Below, in pieces: positions 22,979-28,614 of a stretch of 64,000 nt of DNA; position 1 is the first letter of the stretch; each line of letters opens with the position of its first letter. The stretch is from NCBI GenBank assembly GCA_026391455.1, contig JAPLEH010000035.1:1-64000 (forward strand), written 5' to 3'. The position numbers and the translations under genes are program-made. The notes under the pieces are model-generated. The model was not told the origin of the DNA and searched no databases. It saw nothing but the letters and a program-made list of their open reading frames with translations. This DNA is from Bacteroidota bacterium. Lineage in GTDB: Bacteria > Bacteroidota > Bacteroidia > Chitinophagales > Chitinophagaceae.

Positions 22979-23806
22979 ATGATCAAAAAGAATACACTGC
23001 TGTTTGGATTTATCCTTTTGCTGAATGCTGCACCCGCACAAACAGGATTGAATGAGATGATCAATGCTGAAAAAAGTTTTGCAGCCTTTTCGATCGCACA
23101 CAGCACGAAAGAAGCCTTTCTCCAGTATACAGACAGTACCAGTATCATGTTCGATAATGGCAAAGCGGTAAAAGCCCATGATTACTGGAAAGTACGGGAA
23201 AAAAATACGTCCGTTCTGGAATGGAGGCCGAATCGGGCAGAGGTTTCTCTCACGGGAGACTTTGGCTATACCACCGGTCCGTGGACCTTTCGCCCATCCG
23301 CAACGGACAGCATTTTGGCAAGAGGATATTTTGCCACCGTCTGGTATCGTACCACAGATGGTGAGTGGAAATTTCTGGTAGATCTGGGCGTGGATAACTT
23401 ACCTGCTGATGCCGATACAATCTTTACAAAACTGAACCCGCCAAAACAATCCGATAGCCGGACGGCCATCGCCCATATTTTTCCCATGATTGCAGCAGAG
23501 AATGAGTATGTACGTACCTGGACGAAAAATAAAAAAAAAGGCAGGGAACAATTTTTATCATCAGAAAGTATTTTATTGCGGAACAAGCATCAGCCCGCTG
23601 TAACCGAAGCTGACCAAAAGAAATTGGTGAATGACACGCCATCAGCAATTCAATATAAAATGGAGGGCTGGAATGTATCAGCAGGCACCGATTTGGGCTA
23701 TGTGTATGGATCAGCCACTGTGAACGGCAAAACAGAAAGCTTTTTCCGGATATGGCGTTGCGAAAAAACCGGCTGGAAGATCGCCCTGGAAATAGTGAGG
23801 TACTAA
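22979..23806 (+). CDS. Secreted protein with DUF4440/NTF2-like domains
   Basis: 275 residues with a signal peptide (1-21, ending APAQ). Residues 25-145 follow the NTF2-like DUF4440 pattern: an opening helix MINAEKSFAAFSIAHSTKEAFL, a pocket segment ATVWYRTTDGEWKFLVDLG and a GD.GYTTGPW strand. The second half (about 170-275) starts with another helix and ends with a similar beta sheet (DLGYVYGSATVN, IWRCEKTGWKIALEI), so it is probably a second, more diverged copy. Such periplasmic NTF2-like proteins have no known substrate. It is followed by a repetitive AT/AC-rich spacer. Confidence 0.85.
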   Translation: MIKKNTLLFGFILLLNAAPAQTGLNEMINAEKSFAAFSIAHSTKEAFLQYTDSTSIMFDNGKAVKAHDYWKVREKNTSVLEWRPNRAEVSLTGDFGYTTGPWTFRPSATDSILARGYFATVWYRTTDGEWKFLVDLGVDNLPADADTIFTKLNPPKQSDSRTAIAHIFPMIAAENEYVRTWTKNKKKGREQFLSSESILLRNKHQPAVTEADQKKLVNDTPSAIQYKMEGWNVSAGTDLGYVYGSATVNGKTESFFRIWRCEKTGWKIALEIVRY

Positions 23807-23844
23807 CCCCAGTAGTTCATTCCCAAACAAACCCAAACCTAAAA

Positions 23845-23938
23845 CTAAAAACCTGCCTGCAGGCAAGCTTACTACTTAAAACTTACTACTTAAAACTTAC
23901 AACCTACAACTTAAAACTTACCACTTATAACTTACAAC
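23845..23938 (+). repeat. Degenerate short tandem repeat upstream of the HerA-like gene
   Basis: The 5' leader of the HerA-like gene consists of imperfect repeats of a roughly 13-base unit (variants of acttaaaactta and acaacttaaaac), ending two bases before the ATG. A GCCTGCAGGC palindrome sits near its left end. The units carry no in-frame start and look like simple-sequence drift; effects on expression are unknown. Confidence 0.6.
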
Positions 23939-23940
23939 CA

Positions 23941-25506
23941 ATGTCAGACACTACAAAATTCACCGACACCATCAAAGCCGGCTATACTTTCAAAGGAGAG
24001 TGCTTCAAAATCGGAGGCGCAATGCTCGATGGAGCCGTAATACCCGGCGCAGATGTACTGATACCACTAAAGACCATGAACAGGCACGGGCTGATAGCAG
24101 GGGCAACAGGAACCGGAAAAACCAAAACCCTGCAAATGCTGGCCGAAGGATTGAGCAATGCCAGTGTGCCGGTATTAATGATGGATATAAAAGGAGACCT
24201 GAGCGGAATTGCAGCCGCTGGTACGGTAAACGGGAATATCACCGACCGCTGCCAGAAAATAGGGGTGGAATTCAAACCACAGGCCTGTCCGGTAGAACTG
24301 CTCACACTCAGCAATCAGAAAGGATCGCGCTTAAGGGCTACCGTTAGTGAGTTTGGCCCCGTATTGCTTTCGAAAATACTTGGCCTCAACGATACACAGG
24401 GCGGATTTGTAGCCATGATCTTTAAATACTGTGATGACAAAAAATTGCCGCTGCTCGACCTGAAAGATTTTATCAAAGTATTGCAGTTTGTAAGTGATGA
24501 AGGAAAAAAGGAAATGGAAAAAGAGTATGGAAAAATATCCACTTCCTCCACGGGTACTATTTTACGTAAAGTGATCGAACTGCAGCAACAGGGTGCAGAT
24601 GTATTCTTTGGTGAAAAAAGTTTTGAAGTGGACGATCTCATGCGCATCAGTGAAGATGGGAGGGGCGTGGTATCCATCGTACGGGTGACTGACCTGCAGG
24701 ATCGACCCAAACTCTTTTCCACGTTTATGTTGCAATTATTGGCTGAATTATATGCTACCAGCCCCGAAGAAGGGGATATGGATAAACCCAAACTGATATT
24801 GTTTATTGACGAGGCTCATCTCATATTTCAGGAAGCGAGCGATGCCCTGTTGCAGCAAATTGAAACCATCATCAAACTGATCCGGTCCAAAGGCGTGGGT
24901 ATTTATTTCTGTACACAAAATCCGATGGACATACCGGCACCGGTACTGGCCCAATTGGGATTGAAAGTGCAGCATGCTCTCCGTGCATTTACTGCTGCCG
25001 ACCGTAAAGTGATTAAACAAACATCGGAGAACTATCCCGAAACGGAATTTTATAAAACCGAAGACCTCATCACACAATTGGGAACAGGCGAAGCCCTGGT
25101 TACAATACTCAATGAAAAAGGGATCCCCACTCCATTGGTGCATTGTATGATCCGCCCGCCCCAAAGCAGGATGGATATACTGACCGAAACGGAAATAGAT
25201 GCGCTGGTAGCACAATCCAAAATAGCACCCAAGTACAACCAGGTGATAGACAGCCAGAGTGCCTATGAAATACTGACCGGCAAACTGCAGGAAGCGGAAG
25301 AGCGGGATGCAAAGGAAAAACAACAGGATGAAGAACAGAAAGCAGAGGAGAAAGAAGAAAAGAAGACACCGGCGAAAAAAGAGAAAGGCTTTTTCGATAA
25401 CCCCACTGTAAAAAGCATGACCCGCACCGCCGGTAATACCATTGTACGCACCTTACTGGGCGTACTGGGATTGGGTGGCAGAAGCAGAAGGAAGAGTTTG
25501 TTTTGA
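23941..25506 (+). CDS. HerA-like ATPase (DUF853 family)
   Basis: 521 residues from the ATG at 23941; the longer open frame runs back through a low-complexity leader and the preceding gene. Walker A is GATGTGKT (54-61), Walker B LILFIDEAH with Asp290 and Glu291, and there is a FCTQNPMDIPAPVLAQLG segment typical of FtsK/HerA ATPases of the DUF853 type. The C-terminal 80 residues are highly charged (repeated E, K) followed by a short hydrophobic end. HerA proteins pump DNA in end resection with NurA; no nuclease gene is adjacent, so the role of DUF853 proteins remains open. The gene is followed by the six-copy structured repeat cluster. Confidence 0.92.
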   Translation: MSDTTKFTDTIKAGYTFKGECFKIGGAMLDGAVIPGADVLIPLKTMNRHGLIAGATGTGKTKTLQMLAEGLSNASVPVLMMDIKGDLSGIAAAGTVNGNITDRCQKIGVEFKPQACPVELLTLSNQKGSRLRATVSEFGPVLLSKILGLNDTQGGFVAMIFKYCDDKKLPLLDLKDFIKVLQFVSDEGKKEMEKEYGKISTSSTGTILRKVIELQQQGADVFFGEKSFEVDDLMRISEDGRGVVSIVRVTDLQDRPKLFSTFMLQLLAELYATSPEEGDMDKPKLILFIDEAHLIFQEASDALLQQIETIIKLIRSKGVGIYFCTQNPMDIPAPVLAQLGLKVQHALRAFTAADRKVIKQTSENYPETEFYKTEDLITQLGTGEALVTILNEKGIPTPLVHCMIRPPQSRMDILTETEIDALVAQSKIAPKYNQVIDSQSAYEILTGKLQEAEERDAKEKQQDEEQKAEEKEEKKTPAKKEKGFFDNPTVKSMTRTAGNTIVRTLLGVLGLGGRSRRKSLF

Positions 25507-25522
25507 TATTTGTGGTGAATTA

Positions 25523-25568
25523 TTTCCTGCTCCTGTCTGGGTAAGTGTGGAGCAGCCGAAGTTGGGCA
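25523..25568 (+). repeat. Structured intergenic repeat, type A copy 1
   Basis: Shares TTTCCTGCTCCTGTCTGG and GTGTGGAGCAGCCGA with the copies at 25593, 25680 and 25862. It is the most diverged copy: the ACGAAG tail is missing and the outer stem is weakened. Confidence 0.75.
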
Positions 25569-25592
25569 AATTGGAAAATAAATCCCTCTCGA

Positions 25593-25660
25593 TTATTTCC
25601 TGCCCATGTCTGGCTGTGCATTGGTATGTGTGGAGCAGCCGACGTTGGGCAATTACGAAG
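25593..25660 (+). repeat. Structured intergenic repeat, type A copy 2
   Basis: CCTGCCCATGTCTGGC, a 20-26-base variable loop, GCAGCCGACGTTGGGCA, then ACGAAG. TGCCCA pairs with TGGGCA, GTC with GAC and GGC with GCC, giving an interrupted hairpin. Confidence 0.85.
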
Positions 25661-25679
25661 GGCAAAACCCCTCAAAGAT

Positions 25680-25735
25680 ATTTCCTGCTCCTGTCTGGCT
25701 ATATGTGAAGCAGCCGACATTGGGCAGAAACGAAG
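25680..25735 (+). repeat. Structured intergenic repeat, type A copy 3
   Basis: Same anchors as copy 2 (TGTCTGGC, GCAGCCGAC, TGGGCA, ACGAAG) but a shorter loop and CTGCTCC in place of CTGCCCA. Together with the following type B copy it forms a unit repeated at 25862-26041. Confidence 0.82.
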
Positions 25736-25759
25736 CATTAATCTCATTTTGATATTGAC

Positions 25760-25847
25760 TTACCTGCCCGTGTCAGGTTGAGCGTTACTATGCGCATAGC
25801 AGCCGACACCCGATAGCTGTCAGATGGGCGCTAACGAAGCCGATAAC
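25760..25847 (+). repeat. Structured intergenic repeat, type B copy 1
   Basis: 88 bases that differ from the copy at 25954 at only about two positions. It keeps the type A anchors (CCTGCCC, TGTCAGG, GCAGCCGAC, GGGC, ACGAAG), has the perfect 12-bp palindrome CTATGCGCATAG in the loop, and an inserted arm between GCCGAC and the final GGGC. Confidence 0.87.
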
Positions 25848-25861
25848 TTCTACTTTGTAAT

Positions 25862-25929
25862 TAGTTCCTGCCCATGTCTGGCTTTGGACAGATATGTGTG
25901 GAGCAGCCGACGTTGGGCAGATACGAAGA
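25862..25929 (+). repeat. Structured intergenic repeat, type A copy 4
   Basis: Nearly identical to copy 2 in both arms, but with a different loop sequence. The arms are conserved and the loop varies, which is the pattern expected if the hairpin is what matters. Confidence 0.85.
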
Positions 25930-25953
25930 ATTAATTCCCTTTTGATAATGTCT

Positions 25954-26041
25954 TACCTGCCCGTGTCAGGTTGAACGTTACTATGCGCATAGCAGCCGAC
26001 ACCCGATAGCTGTCAGATGGGCGCTTACGAAGCCGATAACA
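25954..26041 (+). repeat. Structured intergenic repeat, type B copy 2
   Basis: Almost perfect duplicate of the copy at 25760-25847, also followed by a TGTAATTA-like sequence. It ends 12 bases before the stop of the HTH gene on the other strand. The stretch 25507-26053 holds these six elements and no supported gene. Confidence 0.87.
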
Positions 26042-26053
26042 CCATCTATGTAA

Positions 26054-26263
26054 TTATTTTTTATTCGGAACGAGCAAATCCCGCACATCCACATTCAGCA
26101 CATCCGCGATCTGGTAAAGTTTTTCCAGGGATGGTTGTGCATCATTGGTACACCATCGGGAAACGGTGGCAGCAGTAGTTTTTAATTTAATGGCCAGCAC
26201 TTTATTAGTGGTTTCTTTTTCCGCCAATATTACTTTCAACCGGTTATAATTTTTTTTAGCCAT
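26054..26263 (-). CDS. Small XRE-type helix-turn-helix protein
   Basis: 69 residues, almost entirely one HTH_3 domain: RLKVILAEKETTNKVLAIKL is helices 1-2, TTAATVSRWCTNDAQPSL the turn and recognition helix, and LEKLYQIADVLNVDVRDLLV the closing helices typical of Cro/C1-type regulators. Proteins of this size act as stand-alone repressors or antitoxins. No toxin gene is adjacent; the divergent small gene at 26409 is the only candidate partner on that side. The intergenic region is AT-rich. Confidence 0.9.
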   Translation of the reverse strand: MAKKNYNRLKVILAEKETTNKVLAIKLKTTAATVSRWCTNDAQPSLEKLYQIADVLNVDVRDLLVPNKK

Positions 26264-26408
26264 CAGGCGAATTTATCAACTTTTCAATTTGCTATTTATC
26301 CCTCCGGGTGATCTGAAAAGGCAGACTCAAAAAAGTTTACAAACTCTATATTAAAATGTTTTAAAAACATATAAAAGTATAAATTTAAATCAATTAATAA
26401 TTTTACCC

Positions 26409-26609
26409 ATGAAAAGCAAAAAGAGGAGAAAAAATAAACAAATCCGAAAATTACAGGCAAAATCAAGCGCCTGGGCTTTTCGTGAATACATGAAATTGCA
26501 TTCTGCTAAATTACCCGATTCAATACTAAGCCAGATAGAACAACACAGAATGCAAAAGATAAAAAAGGTGAAGTATGAGCCGGATAGGATTGTGGTGTTG
26601 TTGGGGTGA
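26409..26609 (+). CDS. Small basic protein, unknown
   Basis: 66 residues, very basic at the N-terminus (KSKKRRKNKQIRK), then a helical middle (AWAFREYMKLHSAKLPDSILSQIEQHR) and a short hydrophobic end. No signal peptide or known domain. It diverges from the XRE gene with an AT-rich 145-base gap containing plausible promoter sequence. The composition could suit an RNA- or ribosome-binding protein, but nothing specific supports that. Coding status is moderately supported by its codon use and isolated position. Confidence 0.5.
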   Translation: MKSKKRRKNKQIRKLQAKSSAWAFREYMKLHSAKLPDSILSQIEQHRMQKIKKVKYEPDRIVVLLG

Positions 26610-26673
26610 GGGGTGTAGTGATTGTAAGTAGTCTAATTGGCTTCCGAAAAAAGACATAGCTACCTTTTACTTA

Positions 26674-28614
26674 TTATTTACCCCACTCCAGCATCCCGCT
26701 GCTGTTCATCTTTATTTTACCTTCCTCCTGTAAGAAGGCCAGTACTTTCATGAATTTTTCCGTGGGGATATGATTCAGTTTGGCACACAATTCTTTTATC
26801 GATAAAGGTGCTGCCGTTAGCGTACTTGAAATTTGCTGTTGTATGGCAGTAAATTCTTCCTGACTGAGAACACTGCGTTTTTGCCGGAGGCAATTATCAC
26901 ATATGCCACAGGCTTTCATAGCGGCATCTCCGAAATACTGACCGATCACCCGGCTGCGACAACGTGTTTCATCTTTTACGAAGTCCTGCATTTGCTGTAC
27001 ACGCAGTAAGTATTGCTTTCGGCGCGATTGGTAACCCGTCATATCGATCTGCAATTCTTCGGCAGGAATACGGGCACGGATAAAATACACTTGCGGACTG
27101 TCTTTTTGGGGATCGTAGGCTATGATGCCCTGTGTGTGTAGAAAAGTCAATTGTTTTTTTATGGTATCGGCATCGGTCTTCAATAAACCGGCCAGCATTT
27201 TTTCTGAAATAAATACCGGCATATCATAAATCCCTTCATAGGAGCGGAGCAGCATTTTAATACAGGGTTCCAGTGCCGGTTGCGCTTCTTCAAAAGAATA
27301 GAGGGACTTTTTATCAGTGGTGAACACCACCCGTGATGGTACAAATACCTGCTCATTAAAAGATATCCATCCATCCTGCTCCAGCGCTTTCAGGGCGTAG
27401 GTGGTAGTATGTCCGGCCAGTTTGAATTTGACCAGAAAATCGCTGATATCAAAATCAAAATACTGACCCTGACCCGATCCCGCAGGTACCTGCAGATAAT
27501 TGGCCACGGCCTGATATACACTGCGGATATCACTCAACGAAGGAAAACGCATGGCGGCCATCTCTTCGGGATCCACCAGATCTGTATCGTTGTATAACAG
27601 TACTGCATAAGCGCTTTTCCCATCACGGCCCGCACGACCGGCCTCCTGATAATAATTTTCCAGGCAGTCGGGTATATCGGCATGAATAACAGTACGCACA
27701 CCCGGTTTGTCAATACCCATGCCAAATGCATTGGTACACACGATCACCCGGGTGCGGTCGGCGATCCAGGCTTCCTGCTTTTTATTCCGGTCTTCCTGTG
27801 AAAGGCCGGCATGGTAATAATCGGCGGCAATGCCCTGCAATTGCAGCAGGTCGCTGATCTCTTTGGTACGCTTCCGGCTTTTGCAATACACAATGGATGT
27901 GCCGGGTACTTTTTTCAATATCTCCAGCGTTTTATGAATTCGGCTGTCCACCCGGAACACACTGTATGAAAGATTGGGCCGTTCAAAGGATTGCCGGAAT
28001 ACCTGCCAGTCTTTTTTCGGTTGTGCATGACTGTTAGTTCCCGGCAGTTGCGACAGCTTATCACAAATGTCTTCCTGCACTTCCGGGGTGGCAGATGCGG
28101 TAAGGGCCAGTACCGGTACGCCCGGCAATTCTTCCCGCAGTGCGGCGATCCGTAAATACGGCGGACGAAAATCATAGCCCCATTGCGAGATGCAATGCGC
28201 CTCATCCACCGCTATAAGCTGCACATTCATTCCCGGCAGGTATTCTTTGAACAGAGGCGTTTCCAGCCGCTCCGGCGATACATATAAAAACCGGCAGTTG
28301 CTTTGTGTAACCACTTCAAAAGTTTGTTTCACCTGCTTCCAGCTCATGCCGGAGTAAATGGCATAAGCGGTGATGTTTTTTCTGCGCAAATTTTCCACCT
28401 GATCTTTCATCAGGGCAATCAGGGGGGATATGACCAGGCATAAACCATCCAACTGCATGGCCGGCACCTGGTAGCAAAGCGATTTGCCGCCACCGGTAGG
28501 CATCAGTGCCAGGGTGTCTTTGCCGGCAAGCACCGACTGAATGATATCCTCCTGCATGGGCCGGAAGGCATCATATCCCCAGTATTGTTTTAATATAGTA
28601 TAGATATCAATCAT
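26674..28614 (-). CDS. recQ: ATP-dependent DNA helicase RecQ (short form, no HRDC domain)
   Basis: 646 residues. RecQ unwinds forks, junctions and gapped DNA during recombination and repair. Motif I is MPTGGGKSLCYQ (Lys44), motif II DEAH (137-140) followed by CISQWGYDFR with the aromatic-rich loop, and later motifs include VRTVIHADIPDCLENYYQEAGRAGRDG. The zinc-binding domain has CRSRVIGQYFGD and CGICDNC, and an RQC winged helix follows (PLSIKELCAKLNHIPTEKFMKVLAFL). The HRDC domain of E. coli RecQ is absent, as is common in Bacteroidota, which often carry several recQ paralogues. It is monocistronic. Confidence 0.96.
   Translation of the reverse strand: MIDIYTILKQYWGYDAFRPMQEDIIQSVLAGKDTLALMPTGGGKSLCYQVPAMQLDGLCLVISPLIALMKDQVENLRRKNITAYAIYSGMSWKQVKQTFEVVTQSNCRFLYVSPERLETPLFKEYLPGMNVQLIAVDEAHCISQWGYDFRPPYLRIAALREELPGVPVLALTASATPEVQEDICDKLSQLPGTNSHAQPKKDWQVFRQSFERPNLSYSVFRVDSRIHKTLEILKKVPGTSIVYCKSRKRTKEISDLLQLQGIAADYYHAGLSQEDRNKKQEAWIADRTRVIVCTNAFGMGIDKPGVRTVIHADIPDCLENYYQEAGRAGRDGKSAYAVLLYNDTDLVDPEEMAAMRFPSLSDIRSVYQAVANYLQVPAGSGQGQYFDFDISDFLVKFKLAGHTTTYALKALEQDGWISFNEQVFVPSRVVFTTDKKSLYSFEEAQPALEPCIKMLLRSYEGIYDMPVFISEKMLAGLLKTDADTIKKQLTFLHTQGIIAYDPQKDSPQVYFIRARIPAEELQIDMTGYQSRRKQYLLRVQQMQDFVKDETRCRSRVIGQYFGDAAMKACGICDNCLRQKRSVLSQEEFTAIQQQISSTLTAAPLSIKELCAKLNHIPTEKFMKVLAFLQEEGKIKMNSSGMLEWGK

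Follow-up and report, generated by a model that had tools for sequence, protein, structure and literature searches.

The six-copy repeat cluster between the convergent genes of a HerA-like ATPase and a RecQ-type helicase very probably consists of non-autonomous REP-like elements of a Chitinophagaceae RAYT (TnpA-REP) lineage. In the best reading, they are non-canonical REPs with a RAYT resembling subclass 2.6, which were inserted between the two genes and then tandemly duplicated. The type A copies of the cluster belong to a genome-wide hairpin family. REP/RAYT systems are a known kind of element that has hardly been described in this bacterial lineage, and the present hairpin family is apparently undescribed: no published description was found among the matches listed, which is no proof of its absence from print. 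An earlier note on this DNA had found no named family to fit; this holds for the sequences, which match none found, but not for the kind of element, which has been described.

Six related hairpin-type repeats occupy positions 25521–26032 of the window (the whole 64,000-nucleotide stretch that was analysed), all on the forward strand. Type A comprises the copies A1 (25521–25579), A2 (25594–25662), A3 (25679–25737), and A4 (25862–25930), and type B the copies B1 (25760–25839) and B2 (25953–26032). CCTGCYC, TGTC, GCAGCCGA, and GGGC are common to all six, and five (A2, A3, A4, B1, and B2) end in ACGAAG. The exception, A1, is a degraded copy in which, in addition, GAA replaces GAC. A3 is characterized by the left arm TGCTCC and a short loop. 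B1 has the A-type skeleton (GTC, a bulged A, GG..CC, and GAC) with additional bases preceding TGGGC; B2 is near-identical to it, and both contain the palindrome CTATGCGCATAG. The A+B unit is itself duplicated in tandem, with 167 nt at 25700–25866 recurring at 25893–26059 on the same strand at 89% identity and a spacing of 193 bp. The earlier note had listed these copies, their shared motifs, and a period of about 190 bases, all of which were found again on rereading the sequence.

Two covariance models were used: R1, whose rows include A1–A4, and R2, whose rows include no copy from the window. R1 gives 49.1, 69.4, 53.9, and 69.2 bits for A1, A2, A3, and A4, respectively, all of them among its building rows, and weak scores of 8.2 bits for B1 (E 0.016 in 701 bases) and 8.7 bits for B2. 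In whole-genome searches, R2 matches A2 (E 2.5e-4) and A4 (E 5.6e-4). Type B is, therefore, weakly linked to the family. The RNA fold z-scores amount to −1.25 (A1), −2.94 (A2), −1.49 (A3), −3.35 (A4), −1.24 (B1), and −0.36 (B2), so that among the six copies only A2 and A4 have a significant fold. As DNA, A2 reaches −3.67 and −3.53 on its two strands, A4 −3.36, and B1 −0.81. The suggestion that arms are conserved while loops are free is, hence, unproven for type B. The half-motif GCAGCCGAC-NNN-GGGCA, allowing up to two mismatches, occurs four times in the window against 0.28 expected. A gapped pattern modelled on the six copies matches exactly at five places of the 5.5-Mb genome, each of them inside the cluster, and its reversed control at none. 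Among the family clusters of the genome, only that of the window has at least four hairpins in a single orientation; with all copies on the forward strand, it does not contain a REPIN unit, i.e., two inverted REPs. No curated Rfam model reaches its gathering score over the window or E ≤ 5 over 25480–26080, and the cluster has no blastn match in the phage and plasmid collections.

The HerA-like gene (HerA_C by Pfam; 23752–25506, forward strand) ends with its stop codon at 25506. Its true start probably lies near 23941, about 60 codons into the open reading frame from 23752, because alignments to most relatives begin near residues 38–64. The RecQ-type gene (26674–28614, reverse strand) converges on it, and the segment between the two stops (25507–26673) measures 1167 bp. 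It contains, besides the cluster, an HTH_26 (Cro/C1-type; Pfam) gene at 26054–26263 on the reverse strand and an open reading frame of 66 amino acids at 26409–26609 on the forward strand, which has no Pfam match. The cluster is, thus, directly flanked by the convergent HerA and HTH genes, the location given for it earlier. In 19 of the 23 relatives with a HerA match, HerA and RecQ lie side by side and converge, whereas RecQ was not found within the flank covered in the other four. In 12 of the 23, the gene ends overlap by an identical 9 bp and the inter-stop segment is absent; in seven, a gap of 8 to 696 bp separates them. Owing to its frequency among these relatives, the overlap would be the ancestral state, and the overlapping stops place the cluster within approximately 1.17 kb of gained DNA. 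At the 23 HerA loci, R1 and R2 have no match at E ≤ 1, and neither the HTH gene nor the 66-residue frame is matched by tblastn. According to the available text of Di Nocera et al., REPs lie mostly between unidirectional and convergent ORFs (PMC3733652).

The architecture of the family was derived from 34 hairpins of 12 genomes or records, which were aligned by anchoring on GTC and GAC. Its skeleton consists of an arm, GTC, one bulged base, a covarying inner stem, usually a TGTG-like loop, GAC, and the other arm. The bulged base after GTC is T in 32 of the 34 hairpins and A in both type B copies. The loop motif TG[TCA]G is present in 28 hairpins, and TTTC/TTCC-like bases flank 27 of them upstream. 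By script, ACGNAG follows downstream in 13 of 34, a count that misses the ACGAAG of B1 and B2, whose tails were clipped. Eight of the 34 hairpins have GTAG close to the foot on the opposite strand, and all six window copies lack it; GT[AG]G at the hairpin 5′ foot, the mark of canonical GTAG REPs, was not found.

Covariation is demonstrated most cleanly by the inner stem. In 16 hairpins that were picked by pattern, regardless of their inner stem, the 14 distinct five-base stems form 56 of 70 possible pairs, compared with 34.7 ± 4.0 for shuffled partners, and none of 20,000 shuffles reaches 56. The eight distinct three-base stems pair at 21 of 24 positions, which is reached by 6 of 20,000 shuffles. 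In the type I alignment (18 rows), 88.6% of the cells are paired versus 78.8 ± 1.4 after shuffling, and in the type II alignment (12 rows), 91.0% versus 78.1 ± 1.8 (0/500 shuffles each); these percentages are biased toward the structures, since the structures were written from these same sequences. Changes on both sides number 21 versus 8.8 ± 2.2 for type I and 20 versus 7.3 ± 2.3 for type II (again 0/500 each), so the proposed covariance models and search for compensatory changes did yield covarying paired positions. The number of pairs with a change on both sides exceeds the shuffles for type II (reached by 7/500) but not for type I (106/500), and that of further pair types does so for neither. 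At three loci (L045, L047, and L061), the 5′ arm, GTCT included, recurs about 25 bases upstream (e.g., TGCCCGGAGTCTTCC), just before the left hairpin. It is possible that this extra arm competes for the same 3′ arm (GACAT/GACTC), which would create an alternative fold at the left end.

In this genome, at least 43 different family hairpins were found at E ≤ 1e-3 by R1 and R2 together, besides the two type B copies, giving a family of roughly 45. R2 matches at least 46 places at E ≤ 0.1 and at least 40 at E ≤ 1e-3; of 40 matches at the latter threshold, 10 are building rows and 30, including A2 and A4, are not. R1 has at least seven matches at E ≤ 1e-3. The count of 43 may be a lower bound, because 150 first-look candidates were scored per model, out of 694 (R1) and 833 (R2). 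Hence, the family consists of repeated imperfect palindromes, as REPs do, and for the window cluster an intergenic position is established. Neighbours up to 250 bp apart (22 pairs) are arranged +− in 10 cases, ++ in six, −− in four, and −+ in two. Contig 59 contains, at about 112 kb, three REPIN-like units in tandem, each with a left hairpin, a short spacer, and an inverted right hairpin. On contig 13 (L099), a 751-bp tandem duplication (922–1672 and 1672–2421; 91.5% identity) comprises a gene and family hairpins and looks as if the hairpins promote local duplication. Several family clusters, including the RAYT locus, are located no more than about 1 kb from a contig end (contigs 65, 13, 30, and 10); assembly may have been interrupted by the repeats, so that more copies may exist than were counted.

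Copies were also found in other Chitinophagaceae, where the earlier note had proposed to look for them. Blastn of the cluster against 58 genomes (its own and relatives) gave matches in three, namely an additional own copy on contig 2 (E 1.5e-6), a match in G029 (E 0.0056), and one in G021 that was rejected as chance, being 21 bases long and in apparent coding sequence. The pattern GCCCATGTC-N(8-38)-ACNTTGGGC, which is blind to the inner stem, occurs in 4 of 42 genus genomes, and together with GAC in 2 of a sample of 396 genomes of the order, own genome included; the reversed controls gave none. R1 has matches at E ≤ 1e-3 in 9 of the 42 genus genomes. In the species-genome collection, a stricter pattern picked out 20 stretches. 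Eight of them, with 11 matches, bear Chitinophagaceae titles or, once, Bacteroidia (L051, a contig of the same-genus genome G058); herein, L051, L053, L057, and L060 duplicate loci seen before. The other 12 (L050, L052, L054–L056, L059, and L062–L067), with titles outside Chitinophagaceae, were dismissed by eye as chance because they have no family flanks and mostly no family loop, and they are absent from every model and family-member count. Terrimonas, the sole named isolate among the pattern matches, is a member of the Chitinophagaceae. In G029 (L008; C142:3325–3453), two type I hairpins with differing inner stems face each other head to head at a distance of 24 bp.

The hairpins are connected to a transposase gene. 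In UBA4411 (L047), a hairpin directly precedes a Y1 (HUH) transposase gene, and the same gene adjoins hairpins in Terrimonas pollutisoli (L061) and MAG-379 (L048). The present genome encodes an intact homologue of this RAYT on contig 65 (33127–33693), which shares 66% identity with the protein of Terrimonas; contig 13 holds an N-terminal fragment. A RAYT match of some kind, mostly distant, is found in 15 of 42 genus genomes, and intact frames with more than 50% identity in three (own genome, G027, and G015). Across the proteins, the motifs NH[ILVF]H, Y[IM]H[ND]NP, and SS recur. The own RAYT has NHIH, YIHNNP, and SS with a HuH-Tyr distance of 84, whereas those of L073 and L074 have the variant YMHDNP; the conserved W is followed by K in the own protein and by E in the four remaining members of the close group. 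Against the NCBIfam model REP_Tyr_transpos (NF047646), the own RAYT scores 75.0 bits (E 5.6e-21), that of G027 77.8 bits (E 7.2e-22), and that of Terrimonas 59 bits (E 4.5e-16), all short of the curated cut-off of 80 bits; they are homologous to this family but narrowly miss its threshold. Pfam Y1_Tnp gives 18–20 bits, below its cut-off of 23, and no match to transpos_IS200 is listed at E ≤ 0.01 for the own RAYT. With a six-row RAYT profile, Escherichia coli TnpA-REP (4ER8) is the sole PDB entry matched at E ≤ 1 (E 8.7e-4); the profile combines five close RAYTs with the distant L071, which may carry part of this signal, and phmmer with a single RAYT did not find TnpA-REP. The structure predicted for the Terrimonas RAYT from a two-row alignment has a mean pLDDT of 44 and was left out of the argument.

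Hairpins in opposite orientation bound the RAYT gene on both sides in all six intact cases, in four by model and in two partly by eye. The own RAYT has one hairpin upstream and three inverted ones downstream, one of which is partial. L101, L047, L048, and L061 have matches on both sides at E ≤ 1e-3 with R1 and R2. At L074, a hairpin overlaps the 3′ end of the gene (R1, 8.4e-4) and a partial one lies upstream (0.0029); at L073, none was found by model, the downstream hairpin being recognized by descriptor and the upstream one by eye. Many of these flanking hairpins are model rows; the one downstream at L047 (5.9e-14), that at L048 1909–1977 (2.1e-22), and the L074 matches are not. Among 16 other Y1-transposase loci, from which fragments and repeats (L075, L076, L080, L084–L087, L089, L094, and L096–L098) were left out, R1 and R2 match two at E ≤ 0.1: L095 (1.8e-5), a distant RAYT of G001, and L068 (0.021, partial). 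No close RAYT was found in G058, G029, and G025, three of the four genus genomes with the type I pattern.

A miniature element on contigs 13 and 10 consists of the left hairpin, the start of the RAYT gene (about 27 codons, with an internal stop), and, after a deletion, hairpin sequence that closes with an inverted right hairpin. Its copies on the two contigs share 89.7% identity over 379 bp and have different flanks; an additional copy on contig 13 extends over 357 bp at 86%. In G022, a hairpin ends 12 bases ahead of an N-terminal RAYT fragment. These arrangements indicate that the hairpin and the start of the RAYT gene moved together as a single piece, and whole RAYT elements may still be moving.

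The Y1_Tnp genes of L068–L071 were the first candidates for the cognate transposase and were rejected, since other repeats adjoin them. L068 (1976–2660), L069 (1931–2417), and L070 (1913–2094), on contigs 52, 32, and 9 of the present genome, encode Y1 transposases (IS200/IS605 by NCBIfam) with a Y...Q..HH motif resembling subclass 1.2, which the available text of PMC6006769 lists as REP-less. Each adjoins arrays of differing short palindromic repeats (GGCTAAAGCC, CGGGTTGAAACCCG, and GCTCC-NNNN-GGAGC), possibly REP-like families belonging to subclass 1.2; the window contains neither the GGTTGAAACC nor the GCTCC-NNNN-GGAGC motif. L071 (969–1339, contig 19 of the same genome) is a RAYT with 107 bits to NF047646, above the cut-off. 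Upstream of it, a 107-bp tandem repeat of at least three copies holds a GCGAGACTACAAGTCTCGC-like palindrome, and more follow downstream.

Among known systems, TnpA-REP subclass 2.6 is the closest. In the part of Quentin et al. (2018) that describes it, this subclass equals Bertels group 5, is mostly found in Bacteroidetes, and has the motifs NH[LIV]H, WQ, YIH[QN]NP, and SS at a median HuH-Tyr distance of 82; its genes are flanked by atypical, manually found structures without GT[AG]G, of which copies exist elsewhere (PMC6006769). The present system agrees in host phylum, in the HuH, Tyr, and SS motifs, in the distance (84), and in hairpins without GT[AG]G that flank the gene and recur in the genome. 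It differs in the residue after W, which makes WK (own RAYT) or WE (the other four) out of WQ, and the likeness is one of motifs and description. With the canonical GTAG REPs and REPINs of E. coli, Pseudomonas, and Stenotrophomonas, as far as they are covered in the text available from PMC3733652 and PMC8266576, the family shares imperfect intergenic palindromes tied to a RAYT, stem irregularity, inverted pairs (contig 59), and the position between convergent genes. In contrast, the hairpins are longer, have a one-base T bulge and a TGTG-like loop, number about 45, and rarely have GTAG (8 of 34, none in the window, where all copies are direct). In the in vitro work excerpted from PMC8266576, GTAG tag, stem bulge, and loop of TnpA-REP systems matter to differing degrees, which makes the T bulge and the loop motif plausible contacts here. 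TIRYTs, in the portion of PMC3733652 at hand, are RAYT-like genes with long terminal inverted repeats at both sides; they resemble this system in a transposase gene bounded by inverted repeats that are also found gene-free, and are set apart by description, the repeats here being bulged hairpins. IS200/IS605 elements likewise have a Y1 HUH transposase and subterminal hairpins at both ends, and the IS608 hairpin has an unpaired T that is contacted (available text of PMC6006769 and PMC8266576); unlike theirs, the present protein scores as REP_Tyr_transpos and its end hairpins are oppositely oriented. RepRanger, in the accessible part of PMC12306157, gives REP counts for three Bacteroidota, including Thermoflavifilum aggregans, which belongs to the Chitinophagaceae.

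For the mechanism, the RAYT, as a single-strand HUH/Tyr nuclease, would recognize the hairpin in single-stranded DNA by its arms, extrahelical T, and TGTG-like loop, make a cut next to it, and mobilize it. At least one left-end–type hairpin would have inserted where HerA and RecQ converge, and its numbers would have grown there by tandem duplication; the A+B step of 193 bp can still be seen.

A structured RNA, either regulatory or a terminator/stabiliser at the HerA 3′ end, that was kept for its RNA function and duplicated would also have a conserved stem with covariation and would fit the location, as terminators and stabilisers act between convergent 3′ ends. This is improbable: a DNA hairpin accounts equally well for the covariation, on either strand as measured for A2, there is no Rfam match, and a family hairpin occurs at HerA in 0 of 23 relatives, whereas copies elsewhere form inverted pairs and surround RAYT genes, and relatives share the flanks of a single-strand-DNA transposase gene. 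Of the earlier alternatives, selection on RNA or DNA structure or a mobile REP-like element, the mobile element and the structure are, hence, favoured by the dispersed copies, the covariation, and the RAYT, while the RNA and the extension to type B are not. A purely local, meaningless tandem duplication is less probable still. It agrees with the duplicated A+B unit, the degraded A1, and the lack of a supported fold in type B; yet homologous, covarying hairpins exist elsewhere in this genome and in others, so that it accounts for the local amplification, not for the origin, and is refuted as a full account.

Least credible of all is a cassette array without integrase (CALIN), with the copies as integron attC-like sites. 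Such sites are folded and single-stranded, with extrahelical bases, and stand in short tandem arrays; their boxes are R″ RYYYAAC and R′ GTTRRRY, the latter being resembled by RTTGGGC. However, 4 of the 18 type I hairpins contain GTTGGGC and none contains RYYYAAC, and an attC identity was rejected on these box sequences. Moreover, the copies are 70–100 bp apart with no long ORFs between them, and the hairpins flank a RAYT instead.

Several points count against the favoured RAYT reading as well. The excision, cutting, and transposition it supposes would have to be deduced from the miniature element and the gained DNA. All window copies are direct, as opposed to the +− arrangement that is commonest elsewhere (10/22). 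GTAG is scarce, the RAYT scores are below cut-off (75 of 80 bits with NCBIfam and 18.8 of 23 with Pfam), and three pattern-positive genomes have no close RAYT. Finally, two other Y1 loci (L095 and L068) are matched, the type B link is weak, and some covariation measures are null. A host role of the copies at the 3′ ends of HerA and RecQ, in mRNA end protection or termination, is possible.

Going further, there is a slightly less than even chance that the RAYT moves whole, like an insertion sequence, with an inverted pair of bulged hairpins as its ends, and gives rise to MITE-like miniatures in which the left and right hairpins and roughly the first 27 transposase codons are retained; the dispersed REPs would then be the shortest deletion products. 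RAYT/REP systems are said, in the available text of PMC6006769, not to move as a unit. If true, this system would bridge RAYT/REP systems and true insertion sequences and would make visible a series of full element, miniature, REPIN-like pair, single hairpin, and tandem cluster.

For annotation, an unexplained intergenic cluster becomes the probable remains of a mobile element. The family is now defined by a consensus and covariance models, is backed by covariation, and has both a cognate gene and derivatives of graded length. Hence, it can now be tested what a GTAG-less RAYT recognizes (extrahelical T, TGTG-like loop, or stem) and whether stepwise deletion of a mobile RAYT element yields REPs. 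Of most interest herein is the series that leads from the full RAYT element via the miniature and the inverted pair to the single hairpin.
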